A stretch of DNA of 64,000 nt from Alloalcanivorax dieselolei B5. Lineage in GTDB: Bacteria > Pseudomonadota > Gammaproteobacteria > Pseudomonadales > Alcanivoracaceae. Below the pieces are notes generated by a model, which was not told where the DNA came from, did not search any database, and saw nothing but the letters and a program-made list of their open reading frames with translations. The translations under genes were made by a program, and so were the position numbers. The stretch covers positions 2,852,001 through 2,916,000 of the forward strand of contig NC_018691.1 of NCBI RefSeq assembly GCF_000300005.1, written 5' to 3'. Every line of letters begins with the position of its first letter. Positions within the stretch are counted from its first letter, which is position 1. Of this stretch, positions 17,857 through 48,778 are shown piece after piece.

Positions 17857-19188
17857 ATGATCTCCCGTTCTCGACTGAAGCCCCACTTCGGGCCACGGCG
17901 CCTGGGGGCCGCGGCGCTGTTGCTTGCCCCGGCGATTGCTTGCGCGAACATGGGTAACATAGCCACCACCTACGGTGTCCTGCCCAGTGATGTCGCCACC
18001 GTCCAGGCCCTGTCCATGTTCAACACCCAGGTCTCCACCGCCTACTACAACCCGGCCTTCCTCGCCCGCGATACCCGTGGCGAAATGACCGCCGGACTCA
18101 TGCACGCCGATCCCAACCTCAAGGCCGACAGCCAGAACCACGGCACCTACAAGGTCCAGGACGATCCCACCCAGCAAATCCTACTCGGCCTGCGCACCGA
18201 TCTCTCCGGCATCGCCGAACTCGGCCAACCCCTGGTCCTCGGCCTGCTGCTCGGCTCCGAGAAATACTCCGAAGAACTGATGGCCTTCACCTCCCAGACC
18301 GCCCCCTACGGCCAGTATTTCAATCACGGCCGTGAGCCGCTATTCCTGTCCCTCGGCATCGGCACCAACATCTGGCGCGGCCTGGCCATCGGCTTCGCCA
18401 CCCGCGTCACCCTCCACTCCGACGCCAAGCTGGTCGCCCACACCGACCTCTCCGGCAACACCCAGTACGAGACCCTGGACGTCACCGCCAAGCCGGTGTT
18501 GCGCCCCATCCTCAGCATGAGCCTGGACTGGAAGGAGACTTTCTGCCCCGCTGCCGAGTGCTGGTACAACGGCGTGGAAACCGCCTTCGCCTTCCGTGGC
18601 TACTCTTACGCCCGGGTCAGCGTCGACGCCAACACCATTATTCCCGGCACCATCCCCGAGCCGGGTCTGTTTATTAACCTGAGCACCATCGACTCCTACC
18701 AGCCCAACACCTATGTGTTCGGCACTCAGGTGAAAAAAGGCAAATGGCGCACCGGCGTCGCATTGGAGTTCCAGGAATGGTCCAAGCTGGAGGACAAACT
18801 CACCGCCGGCCACGACGACATCAAGGACGTCGGTGATCTGCAGTTCCGTGACACCTTCACCCCGCGCATTGGCGTGGAATACGAGTTTGAGCCCGGCATT
18901 GGGTTTTCCGGCGGTATTGCCTATCAGGAATCCCCGCTGGAGACCGGCGTCAACAAAGAGATCAACTATCTGGACGCCCGCCGCACCATCTTTGGTATCG
19001 GCTTCCACGCCACCGCCCAGCGGGTCTACGGCATGGTCCACCCGGTGCGGTTCGATCTGGCCTACCAGTACCACGCCATCGGCGAGCGGGACTTCCGTTT
19101 GCTCTCCGACCAGAACGGGAATAACGACCGCGTCAAGACCGACGGTGACGTCAACGTCTTCGCCGCCTCCATCAGCATGCAGTTTTAA
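17857..19188 (+). CDS. FadL-like outer-membrane transporter, copy A
   Basis: 443 residues. A signal peptide ends near ACA|NMGN. The mature start (NMGNIATTYGVLPSDVATVQA) and the STAYYNPAFLARD motif (NPA) are typical of the FadL/TodX/OmpP1 family, which moves hydrophobic compounds (long-chain fatty acids, hydrocarbons) through the outer membrane. The chain ends in Phe (ISMQF), the outer-membrane barrel signal. The start at 17857 has TGGAGGA 9 bases upstream. It is nearly identical to the protein at 40282. The lipoprotein gene follows 14 bases later. Substrate unknown; the host context suggests alkanes, fatty acids or esters. Confidence 0.88.
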   Translation: MISRSRLKPHFGPRRLGAAALLLAPAIACANMGNIATTYGVLPSDVATVQALSMFNTQVSTAYYNPAFLARDTRGEMTAGLMHADPNLKADSQNHGTYKVQDDPTQQILLGLRTDLSGIAELGQPLVLGLLLGSEKYSEELMAFTSQTAPYGQYFNHGREPLFLSLGIGTNIWRGLAIGFATRVTLHSDAKLVAHTDLSGNTQYETLDVTAKPVLRPILSMSLDWKETFCPAAECWYNGVETAFAFRGYSYARVSVDANTIIPGTIPEPGLFINLSTIDSYQPNTYVFGTQVKKGKWRTGVALEFQEWSKLEDKLTAGHDDIKDVGDLQFRDTFTPRIGVEYEFEPGIGFSGGIAYQESPLETGVNKEINYLDARRTIFGIGFHATAQRVYGMVHPVRFDLAYQYHAIGERDFRLLSDQNGNNDRVKTDGDVNVFAASISMQF

Positions 19189-19202
19189 GGGGGGAGAACC
19201 TT

Positions 19203-22200
19203 ATGCTTCGCGGAACCTTTAACCGGACCCTCTACGGGACCTTATTCGTCACCGCCTGTGCCACCGTCCTCACCGCCTGCGGCGGCAGCGACGGCTCCAG
19301 CATGCCCGGCAATGATGCCAACGACGCCCAACGTCAAAGCCTGCTCTATGCCTATCCAGACGACGGCCAAAGTGAAGTGGCGATCCCCGCTCCAGTGGTA
19401 TTGCGCTTCACCAGCGACATCGAGCTGGCCGCCGCTGAAAACAACATCAAACTGCGCCTTGGGGGCGCCGATGGGGACATCGTCCCCGTCACCTACAGCA
19501 AAGTGGAAGCCGATGGCCGCAGCATCCTGCTGACACCCACGGAAAAACTGCAACCGCTCACCGACTACACCGTGACCCTGCGCGGCGTGCAACTGAGCGT
19601 GGGCAAGGCACCGAACCGGGATATCCACTTCACCACCCGCGCGCTGCAACGGGGCCCGAAATCCCTGGTGGTGGCCGACGACGACTTCACCCTCGCCCGC
19701 GCCATTCCCAGCGGTGACACCGAAGAACCGGTAATGGACTTCTCTACTTTCCGTTTCCAGTTCACCCAGCCCATCGACCCCACCAGCGCCCGCTACGGCC
19801 TCAACCCCGGCGACGGCACCACGCCAGCGGACACCGTGGCCCTGGTGGACGGCAGTGGCGAGCTGGTGGAAGCGCGCCTGCTCACCGAAGGGCCCTACAT
19901 GACCCTGGACCCCGCGCCCGAGCACCTCACTCCGGGAGAGACCTACACCCTCACCCTGGGCGACGGTCTGGCCAGCACCTTCGGCAATACATTCGGTGGC
20001 CATGAACTCACCGTCACCCCGCAAGACTCATCACCGCGTGGCGAGCCGGCCATCCTGGTACAGCGCATCACCGACTCAGAAAACCGCACCCGCACCTCCC
20101 CGCTCACCGGCAAACCGGTGAACGAAGTACCGGTGAACGCCACCCTGCTCGGCCAGGACAACGTCACCCAGGCCAGCGGCGACGTGCGCGCGGAGCTGGG
20201 CGACGTCACCGTCTACCCGGACGTCACCCCGGTACGCATCCCCGCTGAAACCATCCTCAGCGGCACCAGCCTGGAAGTCCTGATCGGCGGCGAAGTACCC
20301 GCCGGCTTTGAATCCGGCGAAGTGAAAATGCACTTCCTCAGCGACGCCACCGGCTACCTGGTGCCCAACCCCTACGACACCCACAATCGCGCCGACGCCC
20401 TGCGCATCGTGCGGCTGTTCATGGACGTGGCCATCACCACCGACGAAGCCCGCGCCAACGGCGGCTTTACTCAGGATATGCTACACATCGAACTGATAGG
20501 CGTCGGCGAAGTGGATCCACAGGAAGGCGTGCTGAAAATCGACGCGGTCAGCGTGGTGGAACCGGACGTGCTCGGCCAGGAATTCGCCCACGGCATGCTC
20601 AGCTTCCAGCTGGAGTCCTAAGGATCAGCTCAACGCCCCGGCACCTATTCCCGACACCACGCCGTTGGAGTTCCAGAGCTGGACCTTGGGTGTGGATGGG
20701 CAGACTGGTCTGGATAAGACCGCTATGGCCAAACCCGGCGATCCGATTGTGCTCAACTTCAATCGGCCACTGGATCGGGAATCCGTTCGCGGCAAAGTGT
20801 CTCTCATGCTTACGGACAACAACAACACCGCTGTACCTCAGGACATTGACTACTACGCCGATGGTGCCGCGCTGGTGATCAAGCCCAAGGAGCCACTTCG
20901 CTACAGCCCGGAGACCAATCCGACGTCCTATCGTTTGCAGTTGGCGAGTGGGATCAAGGATTTGCGGGGGGAAGATTGGAGTGGGAGCTTTGATGAGGAG
21001 TTTCTGCTACCCCATACGATCGAAAAGTGGATGGCTTTTGATTATTCCTCAGATGGGAATGAACTTGCACGAACTCAAAGTGACACACAACTTAGATCCC
21101 CATTTATTCTTGGGTTATACCCAGGGTTCCCGTGTGTCTTGGATGAAAGCACTTTGAATTTGGCAAGTTTGATATCGGGCCGTTGCAAGGGCGGAATCTA
21201 CCCAAATGATTATGGAAAAGCCGAAAACGATCTCATGCCGATCATCGAGCTACCTGCCAACAGACCAATCATAGTGGCATTTTCTCAAGACATGGATCCG
21301 TCAAGTTTTCATTTAGGAACAAGTTTTATTGTAGAACACATCACCGAAAATGGAGATGTACTTAATTCAGTGCCTGGCGACTTAGAGATAAAACCAAGAT
21401 CCGTCTATTTCCATCCACATACCCCCTGGAAAAAGGGGGATTTCTATCGCTACACTCTCGTGTCAAATGGACAACTATCATCAAGTGATACAAATTGCGG
21501 AGAAACCCTCTGTAGCCTATCAGGCCTACCTCTACAGACCCAGCTCTTAGCAAATATACAAATCCAAGAGGGCAACTTCAGCAACCCATCAGTTCCTGAT
21601 CACCTTCTTCTCCCATACAAGATCGTTCCACAAACGCATCTCGGATACGATGAAGCGACAGGAGGTGGTCCCAATTTAGTTCAGTATTTCATCGGAGCGC
21701 CACCAACCTCCAATGTGCTTCAGATGCTGACAACCTCCCCCATTTCCGACATCAATGGCAATCTAGTAAGCGACAGGCAGAGGATCTACCGAGGCGAAGA
21801 TGGGGAACGAAAAGAACTCAGACAAGGCCTAGGGTGGAATAGACTGGATCCTAACAATCCTTTCTTCTATAAGCCGGAAATCGCCTTTGATGGCATCTAT
21901 GAACTGGAGGAGCCCGGCCCTAAAATGATATCTGACCCAAATACTGAATCATTAACTGACTCAGATAACTTGGGGTGGGGTTATATGATGGATCCAGACG
22001 GAGTCAAACCTTCCCCCAACAGTGCCAAAGTCCTTTCATCCAGATTTGACGTTGCAAACCCAGATGCAGACTGGCCTTATCTATCCATCAACAATACGAT
22101 GTATGCTGGTGCGAATGTGGGGTGTGGTTATCAGAACATTCAGGGTGTTGATTCAACATGCCAAGACAATCCATTCCCAGGCCTTCCTCCGATTTGCGCT

Positions 22201-22794
22201 CAAGAGAGAGCGGTGCCATCAATCTGCCCCACAGAAAAGTTCACCTATCTTAGCAGTGTTCTTTTTGCAGAGGTAACAAGTGAAGTCAGTGAAGATGGCT
22301 CCATTAAAGTAAACATATTTCCTGGCCACGTAGTAACAACATCTTTCTTAACAGTTGTCAGAGGTGGCATTAAAGGAACCACGATGGTCCCTACACCTAG
22401 CGGGTATCAAGTTATGCGAATGAGATATACCGAAGATGGCAGTAATAATAGAATCTATCCCATAGAGGCCGAGATCGGAAAGAGCCCTGAGGGCACGCCT
22501 CAACTGAGCGCATCGGTAGACTTATATCTGGATGCTCCTCTACTGTGGAGAAACATTCAGAATACTCAAGGAACGCTTGGAGGACCAGACCACAACTTCT
22601 TTAGTTACGAAACCTCATTTTCTCTAACTGGAGGGGTTAAATTCTTGGAAGATGGTAGAATGATCGCAGAGCAGATAAACCAAAACGAGGTAAATTTTTC
22701 TTTACGAGGCAATCAACCTGCCACGTTTATAGATCTAATCATTCCCAAAGAAGGCAGCTTTCTACAGTATATTTCCCAGCCTATTAAGGAATAA
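19203..22794 (+). pseudogene. Large Big_5/Ig-like lipoprotein, copy A, split by a frameshift
   Basis: Homologue of the intact 1166-residue protein at 41608. The first part (19203-20621) encodes a lipoprotein signal (VLTAC, then GGSDGSS) and Ig-like SbsA/Big_5-type modules (SLLYAYPDDGQSEVAIPAPVV). At 20619 the frame meets TAA, where copy B reads S-Y-K-D-Q. Loss of two bases explains it: restoring them gives SYKDQ and joins the frame that stays open to 22794 (a 709-codon frame from ATG 20665, but open from about 20620). The second part has conserved Cys pairs and ends LQYISQPIKE. It could still give a 472-residue secreted N-terminal half. A sequencing error is possible. The DNA becomes clearly AT-richer after about 20990. 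Confidence 0.85.
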
Positions 22795-22872
22795 GCTGAA
22801 ATTTTAGGCTTGAAGGTGAGCGACCATATAGTTGGAAATCAGATGGCCGCTCAGTCACATAAAACTCAAAAA

Positions 22873-22898
22873 GGGCCCCGGGTCGAAACCCGGGCCCC
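22873..22898 (-). terminator. Rho-independent terminator of the PraB-like gene A
   Basis: GGGCCCCGGGT-CGAA-ACCCGGGCCC forms a GC-rich stem with one bulged C. Read on the minus strand it is followed by TTTTTGAGTTTT. It lies 22 bases after the stop of the minus-strand gene. Confidence 0.85.
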
Positions 22899-22920
22899 CT
22901 ACCATAGCACCAAAAGCTAG

Positions 22921-23412
22921 TTATCTATCATCTGCGACCAGGGTCAGGTCAGCGGTTATACTACAGTTAGTCCCGTAAGCCCCGGAAACATTTACACTTG
23001 ATGGAGTGTTGATGGTCCCTGAGGCGGTTGGGCCGTACGTGATACCCGTAACCAAACCGCCGCATGTGGTAATCACACTACCACCGGCGTATACGACAGT
23101 ACTATCAGTACCTGTCGCCAAAGTCCCACCGGCCAAAGTACCTGTCCAATTCTCGTTGCCGATTCGAAGGAGAGTACAGTTCGGATCCCCTGGCTTTACG
23201 CCAACAGACTTAACATTAATATCTCCATCGTTGGTGATAGTTCCACCGATCGTCAGGTAGCAGGTAATAGAACCAACATCGCTATTAGTTAGAGTGGAAG
23301 TCCCATTATACAGGGCCCACTCCGGATCATCCGCATGTGCGGATCCAGTCCCAGCTAACGCTACAGCCCCAGCCAGTGCCAACATCATTGGTTTAAAGGT
23401 TTTGCTATTCAT
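22921..23412 (-). CDS. Small secreted Cys-containing protein, PraB-like, copy A
   Basis: 163 residues. A classic Sec signal peptide (MLALAGAVALAGTGSAHA|DD). The mature part is Gly/Thr/Ser-rich, predicted beta-structured, with Cys in the contexts ITCYLTIGG, PNCTLL, TTCGG and TNCSI. The order and spacing resemble the 182-residue protein at 48230, and both remind me of the PraA/PraB secreted proteins linked to alkane use in Pseudomonas; that assignment is by recall and is tentative. The start has AGGAG 8 bases upstream. It faces the cassette A lipoprotein gene and has its own terminator and structured leader. Confidence 0.75.
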   Translation of the reverse strand: MNSKTFKPMMLALAGAVALAGTGSAHADDPEWALYNGTSTLTNSDVGSITCYLTIGGTITNDGDINVKSVGVKPGDPNCTLLRIGNENWTGTLAGGTLATGTDSTVVYAGGSVITTCGGLVTGITYGPTASGTINTPSSVNVSGAYGTNCSITADLTLVADDR

Positions 23413-23560
23413 TGCTATGTCTCCTGTTTATAGCATTTGAACGTTTTTAGGTTTGATGGAGAACAGGTCGACTGCATCCCTGGCCTGCCTCCGGTCAACG
23501 GAGTTGCTCCGTTGGCCACCTCCGGGTTGTTCACCCTTCGGCACGAACCAGATAAATAGA
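23413..23560 (-). promoter_or_regulatory. Structured 5' leader of the PraB-like gene A
   Basis: Read on the minus strand, it holds a hairpin GGGT-GAACA-ACCC and a strong hairpin CAACGGAG-CAA-CTCCGTTG, then the block GACCGG..GGCAGGCC..GATGCAGTCGAC. Part of this block (+ strand 23467-23496) recurs in the leader of the second PraB-like gene. It may be a cis-regulatory RNA; it does not match any riboswitch class I can name. The rest of the gap to 23880 is AT-rich, with CTGTCCCC-type motifs at 23587 and (inverted) 23741. Confidence 0.5.
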
Positions 23561-24006: not shown

Positions 24007-24028
24007 GGGAATAAACCTCGGGTGGGTG

Positions 24029-25036
24029 CTAGTCGAAAACCGCCTCCACTGTCTCCACTTCGTAGACGCGGTCGATCCAGTCTTCCAGCTGTTCCCGGCT
24101 GGCGCTGTTCAGCCTGGTTTCGATCTCCGCCGGCACGTCGCCGAAGCGGCGCCGTAGCTGGCGCAGCAGGATGTTTCGGGCTTCGGTGGTGGAACCTTGT
24201 TCCACACCTCGTTCAATACCTCGTTCAATGCCTTGTGCGAGGCCTTTTTCCAGGCCTTCCCTCAGACCCACCTGATGGTGCATGTCCTTCCATTCCTGAG
24301 CACTGTTGCGCGTCATTTCCTGGATCTCCTGTAAGTCGAGCAATTGTGGGATCGTTACACCCGGCATCCATTGGGGAAGCCGGCGGCGCAGCCATGCCAC
24401 GAAGCTGTGCCGCAGACCCGCCAGTTCCGGTGGACGTAACCAGTCTATCAAATCATTAAGAACCTCGGGTACTTCGGCAAAGGTGCGATGTTGTTCCAAC
24501 CGGAACAGAGCGGCGACCAGGTTGCGCATGGACGCCAGTTGATCCAGATCAAAAGCCCCTTGATCCAGAAGTAAAAAGGCCTGCTCCGGCTGAAGACCGG
24601 CAAACTCCGCGGGGCCAGGCAGGATCAGGTTCCTGACGTGGATGGGAGCCCGCCATCGGGGTTCTCCGTTATACAGTACGACGGGCAAGATAAAGGGCAG
24701 TTTCTGGTGGTTATCTTCAAGCCTCTTGCGGCGAATCAGGTCTTGATATAAAAGGCCCGTGTAGGTATGAACCCGCACCGACATGAACCGATCCACACTG
24801 GATTGGAACTCCAACAACAGATAAAGATGAATCCAATCCCGCCCCCAGCGAATCCGCCAGATGGCGTCGTCGTGACGGGTGCGCAAGTCGTCGCTAACGT
24901 AGCTGCCGTTCATCTTTTCCAGGGAATGCCAATCCAGTCCCTGAATCCAATCCCCAGGCATGAAGCCTTCCAGAAGGTCCCTCACCATGGCCGCATGGGA
25001 AAACAGTAATTTATAGCCGGTGTCATGATCCGTCAT
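24029..25036 (-). CDS. Rpn-family nuclease / transposase_31 with DUF4351 C-terminus
   Basis: 335 residues, the only full-length copy of this family here. The N-terminal half is a PD-(D/E)XK nuclease: RHDDAIWRI (D56/D57) and LYLLLEFQSS (E76, Q78). The C-terminal half has a Gly/Glu/Gln repeat linker (GLEKGLAQGIERGIERGVEQG) and a DUF4351-type tail (ILLRQLRRRFGDVPAEIETRLN...WIDRVYEVETVEAVFD). E. coli Rpn proteins are DNA endonucleases that raise recombination; some are encoded with toxin-antitoxin or defence roles. The tail is the source of at least five partial copies elsewhere in the window. Confidence 0.88.
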   Translation of the reverse strand: MTDHDTGYKLLFSHAAMVRDLLEGFMPGDWIQGLDWHSLEKMNGSYVSDDLRTRHDDAIWRIRWGRDWIHLYLLLEFQSSVDRFMSVRVHTYTGLLYQDLIRRKRLEDNHQKLPFILPVVLYNGEPRWRAPIHVRNLILPGPAEFAGLQPEQAFLLLDQGAFDLDQLASMRNLVAALFRLEQHRTFAEVPEVLNDLIDWLRPPELAGLRHSFVAWLRRRLPQWMPGVTIPQLLDLQEIQEMTRNSAQEWKDMHHQVGLREGLEKGLAQGIERGIERGVEQGSTTEARNILLRQLRRRFGDVPAEIETRLNSASREQLEDWIDRVYEVETVEAVFD

Positions 25037-25176
25037 GTGCCCTCCAGTAGCAGAAGGACACTATGACGATGGATGAGGGACTGGTCTGTCAGCCGAAACG
25101 GAAAGGTATGTCAGTGGGAAAGGACTGTGAGTGTAGGAAAGGTGCGCGTCATTCGGATCAGGTCTTTCCTGGCGTG

Positions 25177-25206
25177 CCGATTCGCAGCCGAGGCAGCTTC
25201 CCACAA
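25177..25206. repeat. Short REP-like unit beside an Rpn fragment
   Basis: GATTCGCAGCCGAGGCAGCTTCCCAC, the same short variant as at 23881 and 27453. Confidence 0.6.
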
Positions 25207-25228
25207 GGGGTGTGAATACAGGGCGGTG

Positions 25229-25378
25229 CTAGTCGAAAACCGCCTCCAGTGTCTCCACTTCGTAAACGCGGTCGATCCAGTCTTCCAGCTGCTCCCGGTT
25301 GGCGCTGTTCAGCCTGGTTTCGATCTCCGCCGGCACTTCACCGAAGCGGCGCCGTAACTGGCGCAGCAGGATGTTGTG
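25229..25378 (-). pseudogene. Rpn/DUF4351 C-terminal fragment
   Basis: About 150 bases nearly identical to the last 50 codons of the gene at 24029, including the VFD-stop end. It breaks off abruptly at 25376-25379 and joins unrelated sequence, so only the DUF4351 tail is left, without a start codon. Confidence 0.85.
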
Positions 25379-25475
25379 GACGCAGCGGCGACCAGATTTA
25401 TTTCGCCCGGAGATCTTTTCCTACATCCGCACTGCTACGGCTGACACCCATTTCCTCGCGGGCTGACAGATTCCC
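25379..25475. repeat. Direct repeat flanking higBA, left copy
   Basis: Starts ACGCAGCGGCGACCAGATTT and ends GGGCTGACAGATTCC. It matches 26809-26907 in order and spacing with scattered changes. Both copies lie next to a broken Rpn tail. The rest of the stretch to 25560 holds no gene. Confidence 0.8.
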
Positions 25476-25586
25476 TTCCAAACCTCCAGCACACTCTTTC
25501 CATAAATAGAAGGTATCGCCAGACAGCATCTCCTTACGGGCAGATTGGAGCGAGCGTCATGAGCGTTGACAATAGCCCATATCCTA

Positions 25587-25604
25587 TATAGCCTTAAACC
25601 TATA
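25587..25604. promoter_or_regulatory. Possible higBA promoter and autoregulatory operator
   Basis: TATAG-N8-CTATA is an inverted repeat 14 bases before the toxin start. A TTGACA at 25566 and TATA-type sequences in the palindrome suggest that the operator covers the -10 region, as is usual for HigA-type autoregulation. The -35/-10 spacing (13-15) is short. Confidence 0.45.
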
Positions 25605-25617
25605 ATCGAGTGTCCAA

Positions 25618-25971
25618 ATGTGGAAAGTTCAAACAACGGATCTGTTTGACCAGTGGTTCAAAGGGCGTGACGATTCTGATCGGGTAAATATAATCGCGGC
25701 GATGCTTGTTCTGGAGCAGAAAGGACCCTATCTGCTCCGCCCCTACGCGGATACGGTAAAAGGAAGCGTCCACGCCAACATGAAGGAACTGCGCATCCAA
25801 AGCAAGGGAAGGCCCATCCGGGTGTTTTTCGCCTTCGATCCCCGCAGAACAGCCGTACTGCTATGCGCGGGCATGAAAGCCGGCAAGGAAAAACGCTTTT
25901 ATCAGACGATGATCCCTCTGGCTGACAAAGCGTTCTCTTTGCATCTGGAGCAACTCAAAAAGGGAGGTTGA
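25618..25971 (+). CDS. higB: HigB-like (RelE superfamily, DUF891/Gp49) toxin
   Basis: 117 residues. Matches the phage-Gp49-like HigB pattern: FDQWFKGRDDSDRVNIIAAMLVLEQKGPYLLRPYADTVKGS, then MKELRIQSKGRPIRVFFAFDPRRTAVLL, then GMKAGKEKRFYQTMIPLADKAF. Such toxins cut mRNA on the ribosome. The toxin gene comes first, as is normal in higBA, and its stop is separated from the antitoxin ATG by one base. It lies between two direct-repeat copies of an Rpn tail plus flank. Confidence 0.9.
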   Translation: MWKVQTTDLFDQWFKGRDDSDRVNIIAAMLVLEQKGPYLLRPYADTVKGSVHANMKELRIQSKGRPIRVFFAFDPRRTAVLLCAGMKAGKEKRFYQTMIPLADKAFSLHLEQLKKGG

Positions 25972-25972
25972 A

Positions 25973-26275: not shown

Positions 26276-26293
26276 CTACAGCCTGACAACCCA

Positions 26294-26362: not shown

Positions 26363-26383
26363 GGGGTGTGAATGCGGGTGGTG

Positions 26384-40281: not shown

Positions 40282-41598
40282 ATGTCATCACGCTCCCGCC
40301 TGAGAAACGGACTTCGCGCCGGCGCACTGTTACTCGCCCCCGCGATCGCTTCCGCGAACATGGGTAACCTGGCCACCACCTACGGCGTCATGCCCAGCGA
40401 CGTCGCCACCGTGCAAGCCCTGTCCATGTTCAACACCCAGGTCTCCACCGCCTTCTACAATCCCGCTTATCTGGCCCGCGACACCCGCGGTGAGATGACC
40501 GCTGGCCTGATGCACGCCGATCCCAACCTCAAGGCGGACAGCCAGAACCACGGCACCTACAAGGTGCAGGACGATCCCGCCCAGCAGATCCTGCTCGGCC
40601 TGCGCACCGATCTCTCCGACATCACCGAACTGGGCCAGCCCATCGTGCTCGGCCTGCTGATCGGCTCCGAGAAATACTCCCAGGAGTTGATGGCGTTTAA
40701 CTCCAGCACCGCCCCCTATGGCCAGTATTTCAGCCATGGCCGTGAGCCCCTGTTTCTGTCCCTGGGCATCGGCACCAATATCTGGCGTGGCCTGGCCATC
40801 GGCTTCGGCACCCGCATCACCCTGCATTCCGACGCCAAGCTCTATGCCTGGAGCAACCTCTCTGGCGACACCCAGTACGAACAACTGGACGTCACCGCCA
40901 AGCCGGTACTGCGGCCCATCCTCAGCATGAGCCTGGATTGGAAGGAGACCTTCTGCCCCGACGCCGAGTGCTGGTACAACGGCGTGGAAACCGCCTTTGC
41001 CTTCCGTGGCTACTCCTATGCGCGGGTCAGCGTTGACGCCAACATGGTCATCCCGGAAACCATCGAAGAGCCCGGCCTGTTCATCAACCTGAGCACCATC
41101 GACTCCTACCAGCCCAACACCTATGTGTTCGGCACTCAGGTGAAAAAAGGCAAATGGCGCACTGGCGTGGCCCTGGAATTCCAGGAGTGGTCCAAGCTGG
41201 AAGATAAATTGACCGCTGGCCACGACGACATCAAGGACGTGGGTGATCTGCAGTTCCGCGACACCTTTACCCCGCGCATCGGTGTGGAATACGAGTTCGA
41301 GCCCGGCACCGGCTTCTCCGGCGGCATCGCCTATCAGGAGTCCCCGCTGGAAACCGGCGTCAACCGGGAAATCAACTACCTGGATGCCCGCCGCACCATC
41401 TTTGGCCTCGGCTTCCACGCCACCGCCAACCGTGTCTACGGCTTCAAACACCCGGTGCGCTTCGATCTGGCCTACCAGTACCACGCCATCGGCGAGCGGG
41501 ACTTCCGGGTCCTCTCCGATCAGGAAAGCAACGACGACCGCGTCAAGACCGACGGTGACGTCAGTGTTTTCGCCGCCTCCATCAGCATGCAGTTCTAA
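40282..41598 (+). CDS. FadL-like outer-membrane transporter, copy B
   Basis: 438 residues, close to copy A along the whole length (for example NMGNLATTYGVMPSDVATVQA, STAFYNPAYLARDTRGEMTAGL, and the Phe-terminated ISMQF end). Signal peptide ends near ASA|NMGN. Differences cluster in a few loops (YAWSNLSGDTQYEQ against VAHTDLSGNTQYET). The ATG at 40282 has GGAGGA 9 bases upstream. The lipoprotein gene follows after 9 bases, so both are one operon. Confidence 0.88.
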   Translation: MSSRSRLRNGLRAGALLLAPAIASANMGNLATTYGVMPSDVATVQALSMFNTQVSTAFYNPAYLARDTRGEMTAGLMHADPNLKADSQNHGTYKVQDDPAQQILLGLRTDLSDITELGQPIVLGLLIGSEKYSQELMAFNSSTAPYGQYFSHGREPLFLSLGIGTNIWRGLAIGFGTRITLHSDAKLYAWSNLSGDTQYEQLDVTAKPVLRPILSMSLDWKETFCPDAECWYNGVETAFAFRGYSYARVSVDANMVIPETIEEPGLFINLSTIDSYQPNTYVFGTQVKKGKWRTGVALEFQEWSKLEDKLTAGHDDIKDVGDLQFRDTFTPRIGVEYEFEPGTGFSGGIAYQESPLETGVNREINYLDARRTIFGLGFHATANRVYGFKHPVRFDLAYQYHAIGERDFRVLSDQESNDDRVKTDGDVSVFAASISMQF

Positions 41599-41607
41599 GG
41601 AGTAGAC

Positions 41608-44600
41608 ATGAATACGTTGACCCTGAAGCGGGGGGGCCTGCTGATTGCCTCCGCTCTGATTCTCAGCGCTTGCGGCGGCGGTGGCGGCAGTGACATGCCG
41701 GGCCCTGGCACCGGCGATAGCAAAACGCAGAGCCTGCTCTACGCCTACCCCGACAACGGCCAGACCGAAGTGCCGACGCCGGCCCCGGTGGTACTGCGCT
41801 TCTCCAGCGCCGTCACCGTGGCCGATGCCGAGGCAGCCATTACCCTGCACGAAGGCGACGCCAGCGGGCCCGCCCTGGCCGCCAATTTCTCCACCGTAGA
41901 CGGCGAACCGCGCGGCCTGGTGCTAACCCCGGACGACAAACTCAAACCGCTCACCGACTACACCGTGGTGATCAGGAACCTGAAACTGGAGAAAGGTACC
42001 GCCGCCAATCAGGTGCTGGGCTTCACCACCCGGCCGCTGCATGAAGGCCCGCGCTCCCTGGTGGTCAGCAGCGACGACTTCGTCATCGAACGGCGCATCC
42101 CGGACGGCGGCAGCAGCGAACCGGTGATGGACTTCTCCACCTTCCGCTTCCAGTTCAGCCAGCCCATCGACCCGGCCACCGTGCACTACGGCGACGCCCC
42201 GGCCAGCAGCACCGCGCCGGCGGACAACGTGGGCCTGTACGACAGCCAGGGCAACCTGGTGGACGCGGTGCTGGTGGTCAACGACCGCTACATGACCGTG
42301 GACCCGAACCCGCAGTCCGACGATCCCGAAGACAAGTATTTCTCCTACCTGACGCCGGGAGAAACCTACACCCTGCGCCTGGGCGACGGCATCACCAGCG
42401 TCTATGGCGAAACCTTCGGCGGCGACGAAATCGCCTTCACTCCGAAGGATTCCTCACCGCGTGGTGAACCGGCGGTGCTGGTGCAACGCATCACCGACTC
42501 CGCCAACCGCACCAACCTGTCACCGCTGACCGGCAAGCCGATCAACGAGGTGCCGGTGAACGGCGTACTGCTCGGCGAAGACGCCAACATTACCCAGGCC
42601 AGCAACAACGCGGTCATGGCGGAACTGGCGGACGTCACCCAGTACCCGGATGTCACCCCGATCCGTCTGCCGCGCAACACCGTGCTCGACGGCAGCAGCA
42701 TCGACGTACTGATCGGCGGCCACGTACCGGCGGGCTTCTCCTCCGGCCAGGTGGAAATGCGCATGCTCAGCGACGCCACCGGCTACCTGGTGCCCAACCC
42801 CTATAACAGCAACCGCAGCGACGCCCTGCGCATCGTGCACCTGTTCATGGACGTGGCCATCGCCACCGAGGACCCGCGCACCAACGGCGCCTTCACCCAG
42901 GACCTTCTGCACATCGAACTGATCGGCACCGCCGCCGTGGATACCACCGAAGGCGTGCTCAACATCGACGCCGTCAGCGTGGTGGAACCGAACGTGCTCG
43001 GCCAGGAATACGGCTACGGCCTGCTCAGCTTCCAGCTGCAGTCTTACAAAGATCAACAGAATCCGCCGGTGGATGCGGTGGCTGAGATGGAAGATAACCA
43101 GCCGCCGGTGCTCCAGAGCTGGACTCTGGGTGAGTACACCGATGAAAATGGCGTCGTTCATGATAAATCCCAGCTCTATATGCCTGGCGACCCTATCATT
43201 CTGAACTTCAGCGAAAAGCTGGATCTTCAGAATATCGGTGGGGAGAGATTTGTATTCTATGAGAATGGCATAGAACAAGAAATCAGCTACTACGCTGATG
43301 GGACCTCTATCGTCATTAAACCCAAAAATAACCTGAAGAATCCTAGACCCGAGCAGGACTATGTCTATAGCCTTACAATTCCCACAGGAATCACCGATCT
43401 TGCGGGCAATCCGCTACAGCCCTCGCAAATAAACGATATTACTCTCCCTCTGGTTGTCACGGAAAGGGAAGCCATCTCCGGAGAAAATGGAGCCCCCCCT
43501 CCTACAACCGGCCCTATCCCGGTAGAGCACCGCTCACCAGTCGTCCTGTCGACGTATCCCGGCTTTCCGTGTGCCATTGATGAAACGACCCGGGACTTGG
43601 ACAACGACATACAAGGCCGTTGCGAAGGCGCATTCCCAGGGTGGGATCAAGGCTCACAATATGACCAGAAAGAAGCAGACGACCTGCTGCCAGTCCCGAA
43701 GCTCTCCGCAAACAAACCAATCGTCGTTCAGTTTTCAAGAGAAATTGACCCGATGAGCATCAAACTCGGCAGCAGCTTCCTTGTCAGCGAATTTGATGAG
43801 AATGGCAATTCCACACCTGTGGAGGGGGCCTATTCTCTCAGCGGCAAGGTTTTGAAGTTCACGCCGGCGACACCCTGGGTAGAAGGCAAGTTATATAGTT
43901 ATACCCTTAAGTCCAATGGCGACAGCTATTCCAACACCGCGACATGCGATGGCAGCCAGGCAGTTTGCGATCTCGACGGCTACCCGATACAAACGGATTA
44001 CTTTGCCGACATCGATTTTGAACCCGTCTATGCCGCCGGCCCTCCTGGAACCCCTCTTCCTGATAGCTCAGAAAGAGAATGGAATTTCCTCACCGAGCGA
44101 AAGCCCTATGACGCAGGTGGTCCGGACATCGTTCTATACTTTAAGGGCGATACGACGAATAGCAACGTGCTTCAGATCCTGGCGAATTCGCCATCCTATG
44201 ATGTCAACGCAAACTTCGTGCACGAAAAAAACGAACAAATCACTGACGGCTCAGGAGCATTCTATACAAGCCCTGCTACTGACCTCTACCAATACTACGC
44301 CGAAGAAAAAGGGGCTGACGATCAACCCTTGGATCCCAACGCGGATCCCCTGCTCGACCCGAATGGCGTTTTACCTCCCCCCAACAGCGCCAAGGTATTT
44401 TCCTTGGATACAAGGGGCGTTGAACCGGATTCTACAAAGGTACCTCCAGCCCCTGTCGTAAACGGAGCCAGTGTTGGGTGTGGCTATAAAGAGGCCATTG
44501 CATGGGACCCCGCAGTTCCCTTCGCGGTATATGGTATTCCCTATGAATGCCCCAAACAGAAGTTCACCTATCTTACCGGCGCCCTTACCGCTGAGGTCAC

Positions 44601-45108
44601 TGGAGAGTACGTGGAAGGCCGCGGCATCAAGGTCCTGATCTGGCCCAGCCAGTTCATGTCAACCTCTATTCCGGTACGTTTCCATCTCACCGGTGGGCCA
44701 ATCTTTGGCTCCAGCAAAAGCGGCGCACAAATGCTAAGAATGCGCTATGCCAAAGGCCAGTCAGGAGTCCGCTCTCAAGCAATTGAAGGCTGGATCAAAG
44801 ACGAGGGCAACGGCACCCCAATATTAACCACCTCGGTGGATCTCTATATGGACGGCATCGAACTGGGCCACAATCTTCCTTACCTGGACCCAACCCATAG
44901 CTTTATGAGCTACCCCGCCACAATGGACCTTTCAGGGGAAATACAGTTCCTTGATGATGGGAGAATGATGATTTCTCAGTTCAACACGAACGATGTCGAT
45001 GTCGATATCGTGCTGCATCAGCACGATGGCGTAAGCGCCGGCAGCCTTCCTCTAAGAATCCCAGCGTACGGCAGCCGCCTTCAGTATATATCCGCTCCAA
45101 TCAAATAA
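41608..45108 (+). CDS. Large Big_5/Ig-like lipoprotein, copy B (intact)
   Basis: 1166 residues. Lipobox ALILSAC followed by GGGGG, so lipid-anchored. Several Ig-like modules of the SbsA/Big_5 kind (LLYAYPDNGQTEVPTPAPVVLRFSS; PLTDYTVVIRNLKL; PGDPIILNFSEKLD; ANKPIVVQFSREIDPMSIKLGSSF). The C-terminal half has conserved Cys (GFPCAIDE, GRCEG, ATCDG/AVCDLDG, VGCGY, YECPKQKFTYL) and ends LQYISAPIK. Downstream of and coupled to the FadL-like porin; it may sit at the cell surface and feed or cap the porin. No catalytic motif recognised; the strong match to copy A ends near residue 475. Confidence 0.85.
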   Translation: MNTLTLKRGGLLIASALILSACGGGGGSDMPGPGTGDSKTQSLLYAYPDNGQTEVPTPAPVVLRFSSAVTVADAEAAITLHEGDASGPALAANFSTVDGEPRGLVLTPDDKLKPLTDYTVVIRNLKLEKGTAANQVLGFTTRPLHEGPRSLVVSSDDFVIERRIPDGGSSEPVMDFSTFRFQFSQPIDPATVHYGDAPASSTAPADNVGLYDSQGNLVDAVLVVNDRYMTVDPNPQSDDPEDKYFSYLTPGETYTLRLGDGITSVYGETFGGDEIAFTPKDSSPRGEPAVLVQRITDSANRTNLSPLTGKPINEVPVNGVLLGEDANITQASNNAVMAELADVTQYPDVTPIRLPRNTVLDGSSIDVLIGGHVPAGFSSGQVEMRMLSDATGYLVPNPYNSNRSDALRIVHLFMDVAIATEDPRTNGAFTQDLLHIELIGTAAVDTTEGVLNIDAVSVVEPNVLGQEYGYGLLSFQLQSYKDQQNPPVDAVAEMEDNQPPVLQSWTLGEYTDENGVVHDKSQLYMPGDPIILNFSEKLDLQNIGGERFVFYENGIEQEISYYADGTSIVIKPKNNLKNPRPEQDYVYSLTIPTGITDLAGNPLQPSQINDITLPLVVTEREAISGENGAPPPTTGPIPVEHRSPVVLSTYPGFPCAIDETTRDLDNDIQGRCEGAFPGWDQGSQYDQKEADDLLPVPKLSANKPIVVQFSREIDPMSIKLGSSFLVSEFDENGNSTPVEGAYSLSGKVLKFTPATPWVEGKLYSYTLKSNGDSYSNTATCDGSQAVCDLDGYPIQTDYFADIDFEPVYAAGPPGTPLPDSSEREWNFLTERKPYDAGGPDIVLYFKGDTTNSNVLQILANSPSYDVNANFVHEKNEQITDGSGAFYTSPATDLYQYYAEEKGADDQPLDPNADPLLDPNGVLPPPNSAKVFSLDTRGVEPDSTKVPPAPVVNGASVGCGYKEAIAWDPAVPFAVYGIPYECPKQKFTYLTGALTAEVTGEYVEGRGIKVLIWPSQFMSTSIPVRFHLTGGPIFGSSKSGAQMLRMRYAKGQSGVRSQAIEGWIKDEGNGTPILTTSVDLYMDGIELGHNLPYLDPTHSFMSYPATMDLSGEIQFLDDGRMMISQFNTNDVDVDIVLHQHDGVSAGSLPLRIPAYGSRLQYISAPIK

Positions 45109-45118
45109 ACCTTCGTTG

Positions 45119-45140
45119 AGCCCCGCGTCCATGCGGGGCT
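45119..45140 (+). terminator. Rho-independent terminator of the lipoprotein operon
   Basis: AGCCCCGC-GTCCAT-GCGGGGCT is a perfect 8-bp stem followed by TCCTTTC, 10 bases after the stop codon. Confidence 0.82.
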
Positions 45141-45446
45141 TCCTTTCATATTTTACTACCTGCTGAATCATAGTGCTTTTAACAGTCTCCTTTTAATCTG
45201 AAAAATCCCTGTATTTAATCACCGATACGCCTCGCAAATTTCTCAGTTAACGAAGTCGTCTCTCACGGAACCACATCACTCATTAGATTAGAAGACCCTG
45301 GAGAGCAGGCATAATCGTCGTATCTATGTAACGAAAACCCGAAAATATAAGATTCATCGCGGAATAACGGTAATGCGGACCTCCATCGGGGATGCGGGTC
45401 TGCATGGAGGGTAATTCCAGTGTAAGCGTCCGGTAATCCCACCTTG

Positions 45447-47024
45447 TCAGGCGGAGGTCGGCGCCCAGTTTTGCGGCAGGAGTTCGTCGATGGCGTTGTT
45501 CTTGTGCGTCGGCAGCCGAGCCAGCACATCCTTCAGATACGCATAAGGATCGTGGCCGTTCAGCTTCGCCGACTGGATCAGGCTCATGACGGCGGCCGCA
45601 CGTTGACCACTGCGCAGAGAGCCCGCGAACAGCCAGTTATTGCGCCCCAGCGCCCAGGGGCGGATCTGGTTTTCCACCCGGTTGTTGTCGATCGGCACCG
45701 CGCCATCGTCCAGGTAGCGCGTCAGCGCCGCCCAGCGTTTCAGGCTGTAGTCCAGGGCTTTGGCCGTACCCGAGCCGTCCGGGACTTTTTGCCGTCGGGA
45801 GATCATCCATTGGTGCAGGGCGTCGGCGATGGGCCGGGCTTTTTCGTTGCGCAAGCGCTGGCGGTCTTTATCCGGCAGATCCTTCGCCTCTCGCTCGATC
45901 CCGTACAGCGCACCGATGGACTCCAGCGCTTGGGCGGCCAGCTCACTCTTGTTGGCCACGTGCAGGTCGTGGAACTTGCGACGGGCGTGCGCCAGGCAAC
46001 CGATCTCGGTAATGCCCTCGCCGAAGCCCGCCTTATAGCCAGCGTAGTCGTCACACACCAGCTTGCCATGCCAGTCCCCCAGGAAGGCGCGGGCGTGTGC
46101 GCCCGCCCGGCTGGGCGCGAAGTCGTAGACCGTGGCCTTCAGTTCAGAGAACGAGGTGCTGCAGTAAGCCCACACATAGGCCCGGTGGGTTTTCTTCTTG
46201 CCCGGTGCCAGCATCGCTACCGGCGTTTCATCCGCGTGCAGCACCGGCTGGGCTAGCAACTGGGCTCTGAGCGCATCCACCAGTGGCTGCAACCACACAC
46301 CGCAGGTGCCCACCCACTCGGCCAGGGTGGAACGGGGGATCGCCAGACCGGCCCGGCCGAAGATGCGCTCCTGGCGGTACAGGGGCAGATGATCGGCGTA
46401 CTTGGCCACCAGCACCTGGGCCAGCAGCCCAGACGTCGGGATGCCTTTGTCGATGACTTGCCTCGGCACCGGCGCCTGGATCAAGGTCTCGCATTGCTCG
46501 CAGGCCCACTTGCCCCGGATATGGCGCTCCACCGTGAACTCGCCCGGCACGTAGTCCAGCTTCTCGCTGATGTCCTCGCCGACGCGCTTGAGCGCACACC
46601 CACAGCGGCATTGCGTATCCTCGGGTTCATGGTGGATCAGGGTGCGGGGCAGTTGGGGCGGTAGCGGGGCGCGCTTGGGCTGTTGCTTGGCAGCGGCGGG
46701 GGGCGCCTGCGTTGGAAGTAACTCGGCCAGCTCCGCCTCCATGGCGGCCAGGTCGGCGTCGATCAGTTCGTCAAGCAACTGGCCCTGCACGCCCTTGAAC
46801 TGCTCGCTGCGCCGGGCGAACTTGTGGCGCTTGAGCAGCGCCAGTTCGTGGGCCTGTTTCTCGATCACCGCGTCGCGGTGACGGATCGCTTTTTCTTGTT
46901 GGCTGAGGGTCCGGTCATTTTGGGCGAGGACCCGATCCTTGCTCTCCAAGTGATCGAACAACTCGGTGGCCAGGGCACGGAGTTGGTCGGGAGAGAGGGC
47001 GTTGAGGTCAGGGCGCGAGGTCAT
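45447..47024 (-). CDS. tnpC: IS66 transposase TnpC
   Basis: 525 residues. An N-terminal coiled/leucine-rich region (residues ~20-75), a Cys zinc-finger (CRCGCALKRVGEDISEKLDYVPGEF and CEQCETLIQAP) and the DDE core: VLHADETPV, LVCDDYAGYKAG, and NRVENQIRPWALGRNNWLFAGS. The C-terminal IS66 tail (PYAYLKDVLARLP) is complete. Third gene of the element, 75 bases after tnpB. Confidence 0.97.
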   Translation of the reverse strand: MTSRPDLNALSPDQLRALATELFDHLESKDRVLAQNDRTLSQQEKAIRHRDAVIEKQAHELALLKRHKFARRSEQFKGVQGQLLDELIDADLAAMEAELAELLPTQAPPAAAKQQPKRAPLPPQLPRTLIHHEPEDTQCRCGCALKRVGEDISEKLDYVPGEFTVERHIRGKWACEQCETLIQAPVPRQVIDKGIPTSGLLAQVLVAKYADHLPLYRQERIFGRAGLAIPRSTLAEWVGTCGVWLQPLVDALRAQLLAQPVLHADETPVAMLAPGKKKTHRAYVWAYCSTSFSELKATVYDFAPSRAGAHARAFLGDWHGKLVCDDYAGYKAGFGEGITEIGCLAHARRKFHDLHVANKSELAAQALESIGALYGIEREAKDLPDKDRQRLRNEKARPIADALHQWMISRRQKVPDGSGTAKALDYSLKRWAALTRYLDDGAVPIDNNRVENQIRPWALGRNNWLFAGSLRSGQRAAAVMSLIQSAKLNGHDPYAYLKDVLARLPTHKNNAIDELLPQNWAPTSA

Positions 47025-47098
47025 GCGGACAGTATGCCAAGCCAGCGCCCGGTGGGCGATTGGAGGTTGGGCGTATAGCCAACGGGAACGAGGTGTGG

Positions 47099-47434
47099 TT
47101 ACAGCACCGAGATCACGGCCTCGTCGCCCAGTCGCTGCCAGGGCAGGCCCTGCACCAGGGCGGCCAGTTGTTCTTCATTCAGGCGCAACTGATCGCCGCG
47201 CCAAGCGTCACCCCAGTGGAACTTGCCCCGATGGAGCCGGCGGGCGCACAGCCAGATACCGAAGCCGTCGTGGATCAGCACTTTCATGCGGTTGCCCCGG
47301 CGGTTGGCGAACAGGTAAGCCTGATGTGGCTTCGCCGCACCGAACACCTGGATCACCCGGGCCAGGGCCTTGTCCGGTCCGGCGCGCATGTCCAGTGGCG
47401 CGGTGGCCAGCCAGATCTCGTCGATGCGGATCAT
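47099..47434 (-). CDS. tnpB: IS66 accessory protein TnpB
   Basis: 111 residues, starting MIRIDEIWLATAPLDMRAG and containing AYLFANRRGNRMKVLIHDGFGIWLCARRLHRGKF, the family pattern of IS66 Orf2. ATG at 47434 overlaps the tnpA stop by 4 bases and is used instead of the longer frame. Needed for IS66 transposition; exact role unknown. Confidence 0.96.
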   Translation of the reverse strand: MIRIDEIWLATAPLDMRAGPDKALARVIQVFGAAKPHQAYLFANRRGNRMKVLIHDGFGIWLCARRLHRGKFHWGDAWRGDQLRLNEEQLAALVQGLPWQRLGDEAVISVL

Positions 47435-47814
47435 CGCAGCAGCTCGCGTAACAGGGCCAGGCACTGATGGGCTTGCTCGGCGGGCCATTCCACGATGACC
47501 GGTCCGCCGGAGCGGGGCACTTCAATGCGGATGCGGTTACCCGACTCCTTGGCGCAAGACCGGTCAGGAGGGCTCGACGCCACCGGTACCGCCAAGGGCA
47601 TAAACGCGGGTGACGTTATTGTCTGGCCGGCTTGCTCGGCTTCACGGATCCAGCGGCGGACCAGGTTGGCGTTGAGTTGGTTGTCCAGGGCGATCCGGGA
47701 GACGGACACGCCCGGTTCCTGACAGGCGGCCACGATGTGCGCCTTGAACTCACGGGAGAAGTGACGGCGACGTCGTGGTTGAGGTTGGGGCTGAGATACG
47801 CTTAACGGGTCCAT
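47431..47814 (-). CDS. tnpA: IS66 accessory protein TnpA
   Basis: 127 residues. Helix-turn-helix of the IS3/IS66 OrfA type (RRHFSREFKAHIVAACQEPGVSVSRIALDNQLNANLVRRWIRE), then a Pro-rich linker and an IRIEVP..GGPVIVEWP segment. First gene of the element; probably binds the IS ends or assists TnpC. Confidence 0.95.
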   Translation of the reverse strand: MDPLSVSQPQPQPRRRRHFSREFKAHIVAACQEPGVSVSRIALDNQLNANLVRRWIREAEQAGQTITSPAFMPLAVPVASSPPDRSCAKESGNRIRIEVPRSGGPVIVEWPAEQAHQCLALLRELLR

Positions 47815-48120
47815 CGATAGTGTCCACTAAGAAATAAGTGGACACTATCGTGAAGGCCGCAACCGTCGACTCAAGATGGGGTCGCCGGACGCTTACATTC
47901 CAGTTCCCTCCAAACCGCAATGAACCAAATATAAGCCTCCTACCCCGCCTTCGGCATAGAACCCAATCAAGCGGCTATGACCCGATTCCATTTAGCCGGT
48001 CCAGAGCACATGATCCATAGTCGCCTTCCTGTGAAATTCCCTATATAGGGCCGCTTTCATTAAGAAACGGCTGGCAAGTATCAAGCAACCATAGGGCATT
48101 ACATATACGCCAGAAACAGA

Positions 48121-48150
48121 AAACCCCGACCAAGTGTGGCCGGGGTTTTT
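48121..48150. terminator. Rho-independent terminator after the PraB-like gene B
   Basis: AAACCCCGACC-AAGTGT-GGCCGGGGTTTTT has one mismatch in the stem and A/T runs on both sides, so it could work in both directions. It lies 80 bases beyond the stop of the minus-strand gene. Confidence 0.8.
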
Positions 48151-48229
48151 ACTGGGATCCGTAACAACACCTAATTTACCATGGCGCCATCACAAAACCA
48201 TTAGAAGAGAGAAGTTCTCTTCATTAGCT

Positions 48230-48778
48230 TTACGGCAGCAGATCTACGTCCTGGGTCGGGAAGTTCTGACCCGTCAGAGTGCCGTTTACGGTGCAGTTAG
48301 AGCCGACGTTGGTATTAAAGGAGAACTGAGAAGCCGCAGCGTTCAGTGCCACACTACCATTGTTGAATACTGCATCCACGGAATTACCGCTGGAGCTACC
48401 ACAGTACTGCTTGCCAAACAAAGTAGTATAAACAATTACCCCGTCGAAGGTGACCGCAGTATCTTCACCCGCTGCAGCAGCGGTAGTCGTAGTAGCAGTC
48501 CACGGGAATTCAAGCTCCACTGCGCTACAGCCGAAGCCACCGCTGACGGAACCACTAGTCACGTCAACAGTCACGGCCCCACCACCAGAAGTTACATTAC
48601 CGGTCAGGCTCAGGGTACAAGTAATTGACGGCAAGCCAGTTTGATTAAGAACCGTAGAACCTACAAAGGTGAAGGGGTTAGAGCCAACTTGGGAGATGCT
48701 GGCCGCCTGAGCACCAGCAGCCCCCATCAGAGCCGCACCGCCGATCGCCATGATCAAAGCTTTCTTCATATTCTTCAT
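48230..48778 (-). CDS. Small secreted Cys-containing protein, PraB-like, copy B
   Basis: 182 residues. Signal peptide MKKALIMAIGGAALMGAAGAQA|AS. The mature part is Gly/Ser/Thr/Val-rich and beta-like, with Cys in SITCTLSLTG, GGFGCSAVEL, KQYCGSSSG and GSNCTVNG, the same order as in the 163-residue protein at 22921. Family link to PraB (alkane-related, Pseudomonas) is tentative. Start ATG 48778 has GAGGA 7-8 bases upstream. Its leader shares a block with that of copy A. Confidence 0.75.
   Translation of the reverse strand: MKNMKKALIMAIGGAALMGAAGAQAASISQVGSNPFTFVGSTVLNQTGLPSITCTLSLTGNVTSGGGAVTVDVTSGSVSGGFGCSAVELEFPWTATTTTAAAAGEDTAVTFDGVIVYTTLFGKQYCGSSSGNSVDAVFNNGSVALNAAASQFSFNTNVGSNCTVNGTLTGQNFPTQDVDLLP

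Follow-up and report, generated by a model that had tools for sequence, protein, structure and literature searches.

Sequence comparisons indicate that, in one group of operons of the AupAB alkane-uptake family, the 3' half of the lipoprotein gene aupB and the neighboring gene pra act as a single exchangeable module of low guanine-plus-cytosine (GC) content, a feature that is new for this family. The module was found in a 64,000-nucleotide stretch of Alloalcanivorax dieselolei B5 DNA (contig NC_018691.1, positions 2,852,001 to 2,916,000; hereafter the window), in which aupA (encodes a FadL-type porin), aupB and, on the opposite strand, pra (encodes a small exported protein) occur twice. An earlier note on this DNA had described the same three genes in the same order and orientations at 17857-23412 and 40282-48778, and these coordinates and strands were confirmed. 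The noted system is real and more interesting than described, though not for the reason stated: its interpretation is partly supported, but it missed both the joint exchange of the aupB 3' half with pra and a frame break in the first lipoprotein gene. Three relatives carry an ortholog of copy 2 between conserved flanks (loci L017, L018 and, in xenomutans, L019), and copy 1 has an ortholog in balearicus (L016). The features of the two copies, with the N- and C-terminal halves of AupB called N-half and C-half, are as follows.

17857-19188, plus strand: aupA copy 1, FadL-type outer-membrane porin (PF03349, 45.6 bits; NCBIfam AupA, 500 bits against a curated cut-off of 840)
19203-20621, plus strand: aupB copy 1, N-half of the lipoprotein, broken gene (Big_5; in-frame stop, after which homology resumes in another frame)
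20665-22794, plus strand: aupB copy 1, C-half in the other frame, part of the exchange block (homology to aupB)
20800-23462, no strand assigned: exchange block of copy 1 (without similarity to L016 at the DNA level; flanks mostly 89-99% identical, with dips to 75%)
22921-23412, minus strand: pra copy 1, small exported Pra-like protein (NCBIfam PraB, E 1e-4, 22 bits against a cut-off of 120; alignment model A4, 144.6 bits, a score that is not independent, the gene being itself a row of A4)
40282-41598, plus strand: aupA copy 2 (PF03349, 45 bits; NCBIfam AupA, 507.5 bits)
41608-45108, plus strand: aupB copy 2, intact lipoprotein of 1166 amino acids (four Big_5 stretches)
43137-48691, no strand assigned: exchange block of copy 2, comprising the aupB 3' half, terminators, an IS66 insertion and the mature part of pra (blastn against L017 and L018)
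45118-45141, plus strand: terminator-like stem 3' of aupB copy 2 (10 pairs, 7 of them GC)
45447-47814, minus strand: IS66 element within the copy 2 block, with TnpC, TnpB and a small helix-turn-helix open reading frame, or ORF (PF03050, PF05717, PF01527)
45447-47024: TnpC of this element, which together with two small ORFs lies between the lipoprotein and Pra genes of copy 2
48120-48149, minus strand: terminator-like stem 3' of pra copy 2 (13 pairs)
48230-48778, minus strand: pra copy 2 (NCBIfam PraA, 44.9 bits against a cut-off of 150; PraB, 39.1 bits against 120)

The exchange is seen most clearly in copy 2. Against L017 and L018, aupA and the N-half of aupB are 88.4-100% identical in 250-base steps; no collinear blastn match to these two loci was then found between 43133/43136 and 48705/48692, and identity returns at the end of the pra signal peptide. 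The stepwise identity profiles cover one strand only, whereas the blastn comparison covered both; in L018, the gap region holds two IS66-like stretches on the opposite strand (76% and 85%). Codon profiles place the breakpoints at aupB codons ~500-510, which is the junction of the two halves of AupB, and at pra codon ~25, such that the first ~25 codons of pra (a signal peptide, as judged by eye) are conserved and the mature part is exchanged. Accordingly placed differences appear in the proteins: identity to L017 and L018 is 97 and 99% for AupA, 98 and 97% for the AupB N-half, 46 and 51% for the C-half, and 42 and 35% for Pra after residue 27. Synonymous divergence (dS) from the same two loci is 0.19-0.30 for aupA and 0.12-0.13 for the N-half; within the block, it is saturated for the C-half (proportion of synonymous differences, pS, 0.78) and 2.3-2.7 for mature Pra (pS 0.72-0.73). 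Against L019 the order is reversed, with dS of 0.03 for the C-half and 0.05 for Pra, below the 0.27 of aupA and the 0.15 of the N-half, which argues that the block has moved recently. The IS66 element has no counterpart in L019.

Copy 1 shows the same pattern. Relative to L016, protein identity is 95% for AupA and 98% for the AupB N-half, falling to 46% for the C-half and 41% for Pra, and the GC content of aupB drops from 64.5% in the N-half to 46.3% in the C-half. A further pair of loci, L100 and L098, is 97.5-100% identical in 200-base steps over the first 6 kb and shows no similarity from the middle of aupB onward. Conserved flanks around a sharply bounded variable part of other ancestry, as found here, are the pattern by which mosaic envelope proteins are recognized.

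How general is the exchange? We compared 133 AupB genes of at least 900 amino acids, 42 of them Pra-linked, forming ortholog groups at an N-half identity of at least 90% and counting C-halves as distinct alleles when less than 70% alike. Two or more C alleles occur in all eight Pra-linked ortholog groups and in none of the 12 unlinked groups. At the level of pairs, which are not independent of one another, a C-half identity below 60% was found for 17 of 19 linked and 0 of 25 unlinked pairs with N-halves at least 90% identical, and for 8 of 11 linked and 1 of 57 unlinked pairs with N-halves 80-90% identical. For the group and pair counts, one doubly sampled gene (L093 12482-16000) was dropped and the end-cut AupB genes of L100, L135 and L096 were counted as Pra-linked; if this is not done, the pairs with C-halves below 60% number 16 of 18 linked and 0 of 25 unlinked. 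The allele pool is also large, with 39 linked C-halves falling into 31 clusters at 60% identity and their N-halves into 7. In these 39 genes, GC content falls from 63.6% in the N-half to 50.2% in the C-half (mean drop 13.4 points; more than 8 points in 32 of 39), compared to 60.7% and 59.3% in the 95 other genes (mean drop 1.4 points; more than 8 points in 8 of 95), among which the four dropped or reclassified genes stand in the GC and cluster counts. AupB ORFs shorter than 900 amino acids, including the broken copy 1, were left out of the pair, group, co-variation, GC, cluster and tree results. Overlapping loci (L103-L105, L109, L110 and L112, equivalent to L020-L022, L016, L056 and L057) were left out of the pair, co-variation, Rpn and lipobox counts, and L090-L092, the same places as L017-L019, were likewise left out.

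The two parts of the block also vary together. Across 39 trios (the nearest Pra being taken where there are several), pairwise identities correlate at 0.60 between C-half and Pra, 0.44 between N-half and C-half, and 0.19 between N-half and Pra. In a partial Mantel test, the correlation of C-half with Pra given the N-half is 0.58, a value reached in 0 of 2000 permutations, and it is 0.49 (0 of 2000) without the pairs of C-halves at least 75% identical. Within genera it is 0.72, and within the window's genus alone it is 0.70 (25 trios; 0 of 2000 in each case); restricted to C-halves less than 70% identical, the two values are 0.60 and 0.63. Some C modules sit on unrelated N-halves (C-half 73% with N-half 53% identical; C-half 69% with N-half 46%). 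These comparisons show joint descent of the AupB C-half and Pra, and linked co-variation of partners, as expected of a lock-and-key pair, suggests that the two proteins may be in contact.

By profile comparison, the window porins and lipoproteins belong to the AupAB alkane-uptake family. The aupB genes follow aupA on the same strand after 14 bases (copy 1) and 9 bases (copy 2), so the coupling of lipoprotein to porin given in the earlier note holds. Both porins match PF03349 (Toluene_X/FadL) at ~45 bits, above the gathering cut-off of 29.7, and the NCBIfam AupA profile over nearly the full length (residue 24 to the end, E ~1e-150). The scores of 500-507 bits are below the NCBIfam equivalog cut-off of 840, which no genome of the family reached (0 of 46 searched), making the window porins homologues rather than proven equivalogs; AupA is present in 44 of the 46 genomes. 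An order-wide search of 390 genomes found AupA above the curated cut-off at 13 places in 12 genomes (in this and the order-wide Pra search below, part of each genome's first-look candidates was scored). One such place was examined in each genome, and in all 12 the AupB profile matches the next gene (E 1.2e-223 or better), which starts 4-14 bases farther on along the same strand.

Both window lipoproteins contain Big_5 domains (Pfam). AupB is made up of two halves in tandem; in either half, two Big_5/CopC-like domains come first and a beta-rich domain follows. The Big_5 pairs of the two halves are homologous to each other. In AupB copy 2, residues ~25-479 form the conserved N-half and ~510-1166 the exchangeable C-half; an AlphaFold2 model of this protein has a mean predicted local confidence (pLDDT) of 86.3 and a predicted template-modeling score (pTM) of 0.88. 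C-halves retain conserved positions to their end, with three cysteines invariant across 63 aligned AupBs, and glycine follows the lipobox cysteine in 104 of the 129 AupBs with a recognized lipobox (134 AupBs in all).

Published work already describes such a pair. In Marinobacter hydrocarbonoclasticus SP17, aupA and aupB lie 11 nt apart and are induced by hexadecane; AupA and AupB co-precipitate and are needed to take up micellar hexadecane, and Alcanivorax genomes carry up to six non-identical aupAB copies (PMC5989066). Contact of the two proteins, induction and alkane-dependent growth are known for SP17 only. Since the porin and lipoprotein are homologues of this pair, the claim that the joint system was undescribed does not stand; the idea of a recurrent trio at the cell envelope, probably serving a hydrophobic compound, does. 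Three observations on aupA can be added. Tandem aupA pairs precede a single aupB in five species (L093 2214-4954, L098 1851-4660, L100 1870-4679, L096 13292-16035 and L102 10318-13133); aupB-pra units away from contig ends stand without an adjoining aupA at L108 6172-10326 and L129 2482-8226; and the draft contigs of six genomes (G001, G005, G007, G010, G011 and G012) break off within aupA at several places, which would be expected were the paralogous aupA genes of one genome near identical.

The third gene is, by its sequence, a distant relative of PraA/PraB. Export was judged by eye from the N-terminal sequence rather than by a signal-peptide program. NCBIfam matches in line with the earlier label "PraB-like" exist, but all are weak and far under the equivalog cut-offs (150 bits for PraA, 120 for PraB): 44.9 and 39.1 bits for copy 2 and 22 bits for copy 1. 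No genome of the genus scored above the PraB cut-off (0 of 13 searched). Alignment model A4 gave 61 hits in 24 of the 46 genomes of the family; A4 was built from family members, so these hits are not independent of it, and the Pra model was iterated on the sampled loci themselves. Neighborhoods, counted in loci taken around aupA, aupB or Pra hits, comprise 67 Pra genes (44 non-duplicate loci), 59 of which share a locus with an aupB. In 53 of the 67, pra lies 3' of aupB and on the other strand (median distance 1039 bases; no more than 5 kb in 51); four are 3' on the same strand, two are 5', and eight are on stretches without aupB. The trio arrangement thus exceeds chance. It is not universal: the co-occurrence as neighbors that the earlier note had proposed to check holds for most Pra genes within the family, but 91 of the 133 AupB genes have no detected Pra. 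Two to four tandem Pra genes, neighbors being 60-80% alike, occur in L102 (1697-4934), L118, L129, L130, L126 and L107; in L102, four stand behind a single aupB.

Pra was found in 10 of the 293 genomes of the order-wide sample. Five of these do not belong to the family; four are members of a single genus (f21/g60), and the fifth, G133, has a weak hit. No AupB match was found in the four genomes, and G133 has a weak one (60.7 bits) on a different contig. In all four f21/g60 loci (L155-L158), Pra adjoins a FadL-like porin that scores 30-36 bits with our AupA profile. In L155, the one locus scanned, PraA and PraB are above the NCBIfam cut-offs and the porin matches FadL under its cut-off. Pseudomonas has a cluster alkB-praA-praB-ompP1, whose PraA and PraB are said to have alkane-solubilizing effects (PMC4542665); alkB beside Pra was not confirmed in L155, where the ORF before PraA/PraB matched no family.

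What might the exchange mean for alkane uptake? We favor, as the probable explanation, an aupAB-type alkane-uptake system in which a docking C-half of AupB and the exported Pra form a matched pair that is exchanged as a block. AupA is a FadL-type outer-membrane channel, and AupB a large lipoprotein that would be in contact with it. Convergently transcribed pra encodes a small exported protein related to activators of alkane oxidation. Pra may bind, solubilize or disperse alkane and then dock on, or hand over to, the C-half of its own AupB, which would pass the alkane on. The N-half, encoded beside aupA, is conserved, while C-half and Pra are exchanged as a block, on this explanation because they must match. 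Homologous recombination in the conserved flanks would be the simplest route of exchange: one flank is aupA with the aupB N-half, and the other is the 5' end of pra or DNA directly upstream of that gene. In copy 2, the convergent layout keeps both gene starts, with their export signals, and also the N-half out of the block, and both 3' ends fall within it. A quite doubtful extension is that Pra is a private good, an exported alkane solubilizer whose loaded form is accepted only by an AupB C-half of the same allele. Kin would then profit and strangers would not, with lock and key encoded tail to tail in one exchangeable block; the block could spread by recombination, its diversity kept by rare-type advantage, as with siderophores and their receptors.

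Several points weigh against the matched-pair explanation. First, the pra signal peptide holds the far breakpoint only in copy 2; in copy 1, the breakpoint is just upstream of pra, and signal peptides also differ in more distant loci (L098, L093 and L096). Second, Pra-linked AupBs are essentially one clade of the AupB N-half tree (six state changes over 134 genes), meaning that linkage goes with exchange as a single evolutionary contrast rather than many; of the five unlinked genes inside this clade, four were either sampled twice or truncated by the end of a contig or locus. Third, the C-half is less conserved than the N-half in unlinked copies too (in one set, N-half 93-98% and C-half 77-84%), and some close linked pairs are unswapped (N-half 88%, C-half 84%; N-half 82%, C-half 86%). 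Fourth, the co-variation fits contact and mere co-transfer alike, and several genomes carry tandem or extra Pra genes. Fifth, with AupA at 500-507 rather than 840 bits and Pra far below its cut-offs, the same substrate is not assured. Sixth, most Marinobacter AupB is recovered in the inner-membrane fraction (PMC5989066), which, if it applies here, would fit poorly with contact to an extracellular Pra.

Other explanations were weighed as well. A tentative possibility, which concerns what keeps the alleles diverse and overlaps with the matched-pair explanation, is that an exposed C-half and Pra are swapped under recognition by phages or grazers, the partner changing only as a block neighbor. Outer-membrane proteins are known in which variable regions have been exchanged to give mosaics (PMC12175518), the block is GC-poor, and the pool of 31 clusters among 39 C-halves is very large; moreover, genes of the Rpn-like family, reported to be anti-phage (PMC10327210), occur in Pra loci. 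This possibility has to contend with the mainly inner-membrane AupB of Marinobacter (PMC5989066) and with AupA, the component surest to face outward, being conserved (95-99% in set c2). The C-half, furthermore, tracks Pra better than it tracks its adjoining N-half. Rather unlikely is substrate tuning, also overlapping with the matched pair, in which modules suited to different alkanes, esters or emulsion types would be exchanged as niches change. The several non-identical aupAB copies per Alcanivorax genome (PMC5989066), of which there are six here, would suit it, as would the different chain lengths taken by A. dieselolei transporters (PMC5174103, citing Wang and Shao 2014); yet the channel hardly changes while its partner does, and 31 clusters exceed the apparent need of a few substrate classes.

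A very improbable alternative is that the C-half evolves fast under relaxed constraint in a dispensable duplicate, with Pra hitchhiking. Copy 1 is indeed frame-broken, copies 0 (described below) and 2 contain transposase genes, and in unlinked copies, too, conservation is lower in the C-half than in the N-half. The alternative is largely refuted by the sharp breakpoints, together with dS saturated in the block only, the GC step, a block more alike between two species than its flanks, and conserved positions in the C-halves, including the invariant cysteines. That the C-half is a polymorphic effector and Pra its neutralizer is hardly credible: such systems usually combine a swapped C-terminal part with a small gene linked to it, but only Big_5 was found in either AupB half (Pfam; the structure search covered mostly residues 37-472), the C-half begins with a part homologous to the N-half and has conserved positions to its end, and the f21/g60 Pra relatives adjoin a porin without any AupB.

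The matched-pair explanation bears on a wider question. Transport of very insoluble alkanes through the Gram-negative envelope is poorly known, and the role of AupB is only proposed in print (PMC5989066). The exchange block points to a part of AupB that meets something variable, with Pra as its likely partner, and natural alleles supply ready-made matched and mismatched pairs of AupB C-half and Pra. If partner matching is true, marine hydrocarbon degradation would have a kin-restricted step comparable to siderophore use.

The genome (one contig of 4,928,223 bases) has six aupAB pairs, three with pra and three elsewhere. The cassette had been counted as two copies; both are in the window, but a third trio with the same order and orientations (copy 0; L008 9343-16134) starts 36.7 kb upstream of it, the first lipoprotein gene is broken, and copy 2 contains the IS66 element. 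Copy 0 has a transposase ORF between aupB and pra. Copies 0, 1 and 2 are close relatives within ~85 kb, and the three Pra genes detected genome-wide each lie 3' of one of their aupB genes, on the opposite strand. The window porins, previously called nearly identical, are of the same family and share 89-91% protein identity. Identity between the lipoproteins is 61% over the N-half and 35% over the C-half; between the two Pra proteins it is 24-28%. Copy 1 of aupB (~3.6 kb in all) is frame-broken near the junction of its halves; with the C-half open for 709 codons, either the frame was lost recently, or the sequence contains an error, or the gene is truly split in two. The most distant pair of the genome (L014 3283-10360) is near a flavin monooxygenase-like gene, and its map position suggests it as a candidate for the ompT-1 named in the literature. 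Across the region, 20 terminator-like sites were found, against 8.6 expected. Two genes resembling REP-associated tyrosine transposases, both below the curated cut-off, are at 28455-29147 and 49252-49947 of the window. One further gene adjoins copy 1:

24029-25036, minus strand: gene of the Rpn nuclease family (YhgA-like, Transposase_31 and DUF4351; PF04754, 91.8 bits)

Rpn-like ORFs occur in 17 of 44 Pra loci and in 0 of 74 others, a contrast that is confounded with clade; some of the 74 are short fragments. Relatives in E. coli, if overexpressed, promote RecA-independent recombination (PMC5350276), and Rpn-like genes may take part in the exchange, which is a lead only. The Rpn-like gene ends in a 143-base stretch that occurs in five copies, 61-100% alike, within 24025-28027 (at 24033, 25233, 26388, 27511 and 27885); they resemble an array of orphan Rpn tails.

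How does the module compare with known systems? The closest is AupA/AupB of M. hydrocarbonoclasticus SP17, likewise a FadL-type porin followed closely by a large partner and present in multiple copies per genome (PMC5989066), a likeness that rests on position and profile rather than on a letter-by-letter comparison with SP17. The window system differs in its AupA scores below the NCBIfam cut-off, its attached Pra gene and its exchangeable C-half; excerpts of the AupAB account (PMC5989066) mention neither of the latter two. The Pseudomonas PraA/PraB cluster (PMC4542665) and L155-L158 resemble the window system in having small exported proteins, all from one family, next to a FadL-type porin. 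In L155-L158, Pra is on the same strand as the porin and without AupB, whereas window Pra is on the opposite strand and with AupB; PraA/PraB of L155 pass the NCBIfam cut-offs, and the window proteins do not. Rpn/YhgA-like recombination-promoting nucleases (PMC5350276) have members adjoining many exchange loci, and a driver role here would be a candidate only. E. coli mosaic outer-membrane proteins, too, combine a conserved frame with a locally recombined variable part, mostly in extracellular loops of single proteins (PMC12175518). Here, in contrast, a whole C-half is involved, along with a second, convergent gene. Pyoverdine and its receptor FpvA are a case in which an exported factor and its uptake partner diversify together. 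Pyoverdine, however, is a peptide siderophore made by synthetases, whereas Pra is a gene-encoded protein whose recognition by a partner is putative. Overall, the window holds a known uptake family with a new exchangeable module made of half a gene and its partner.

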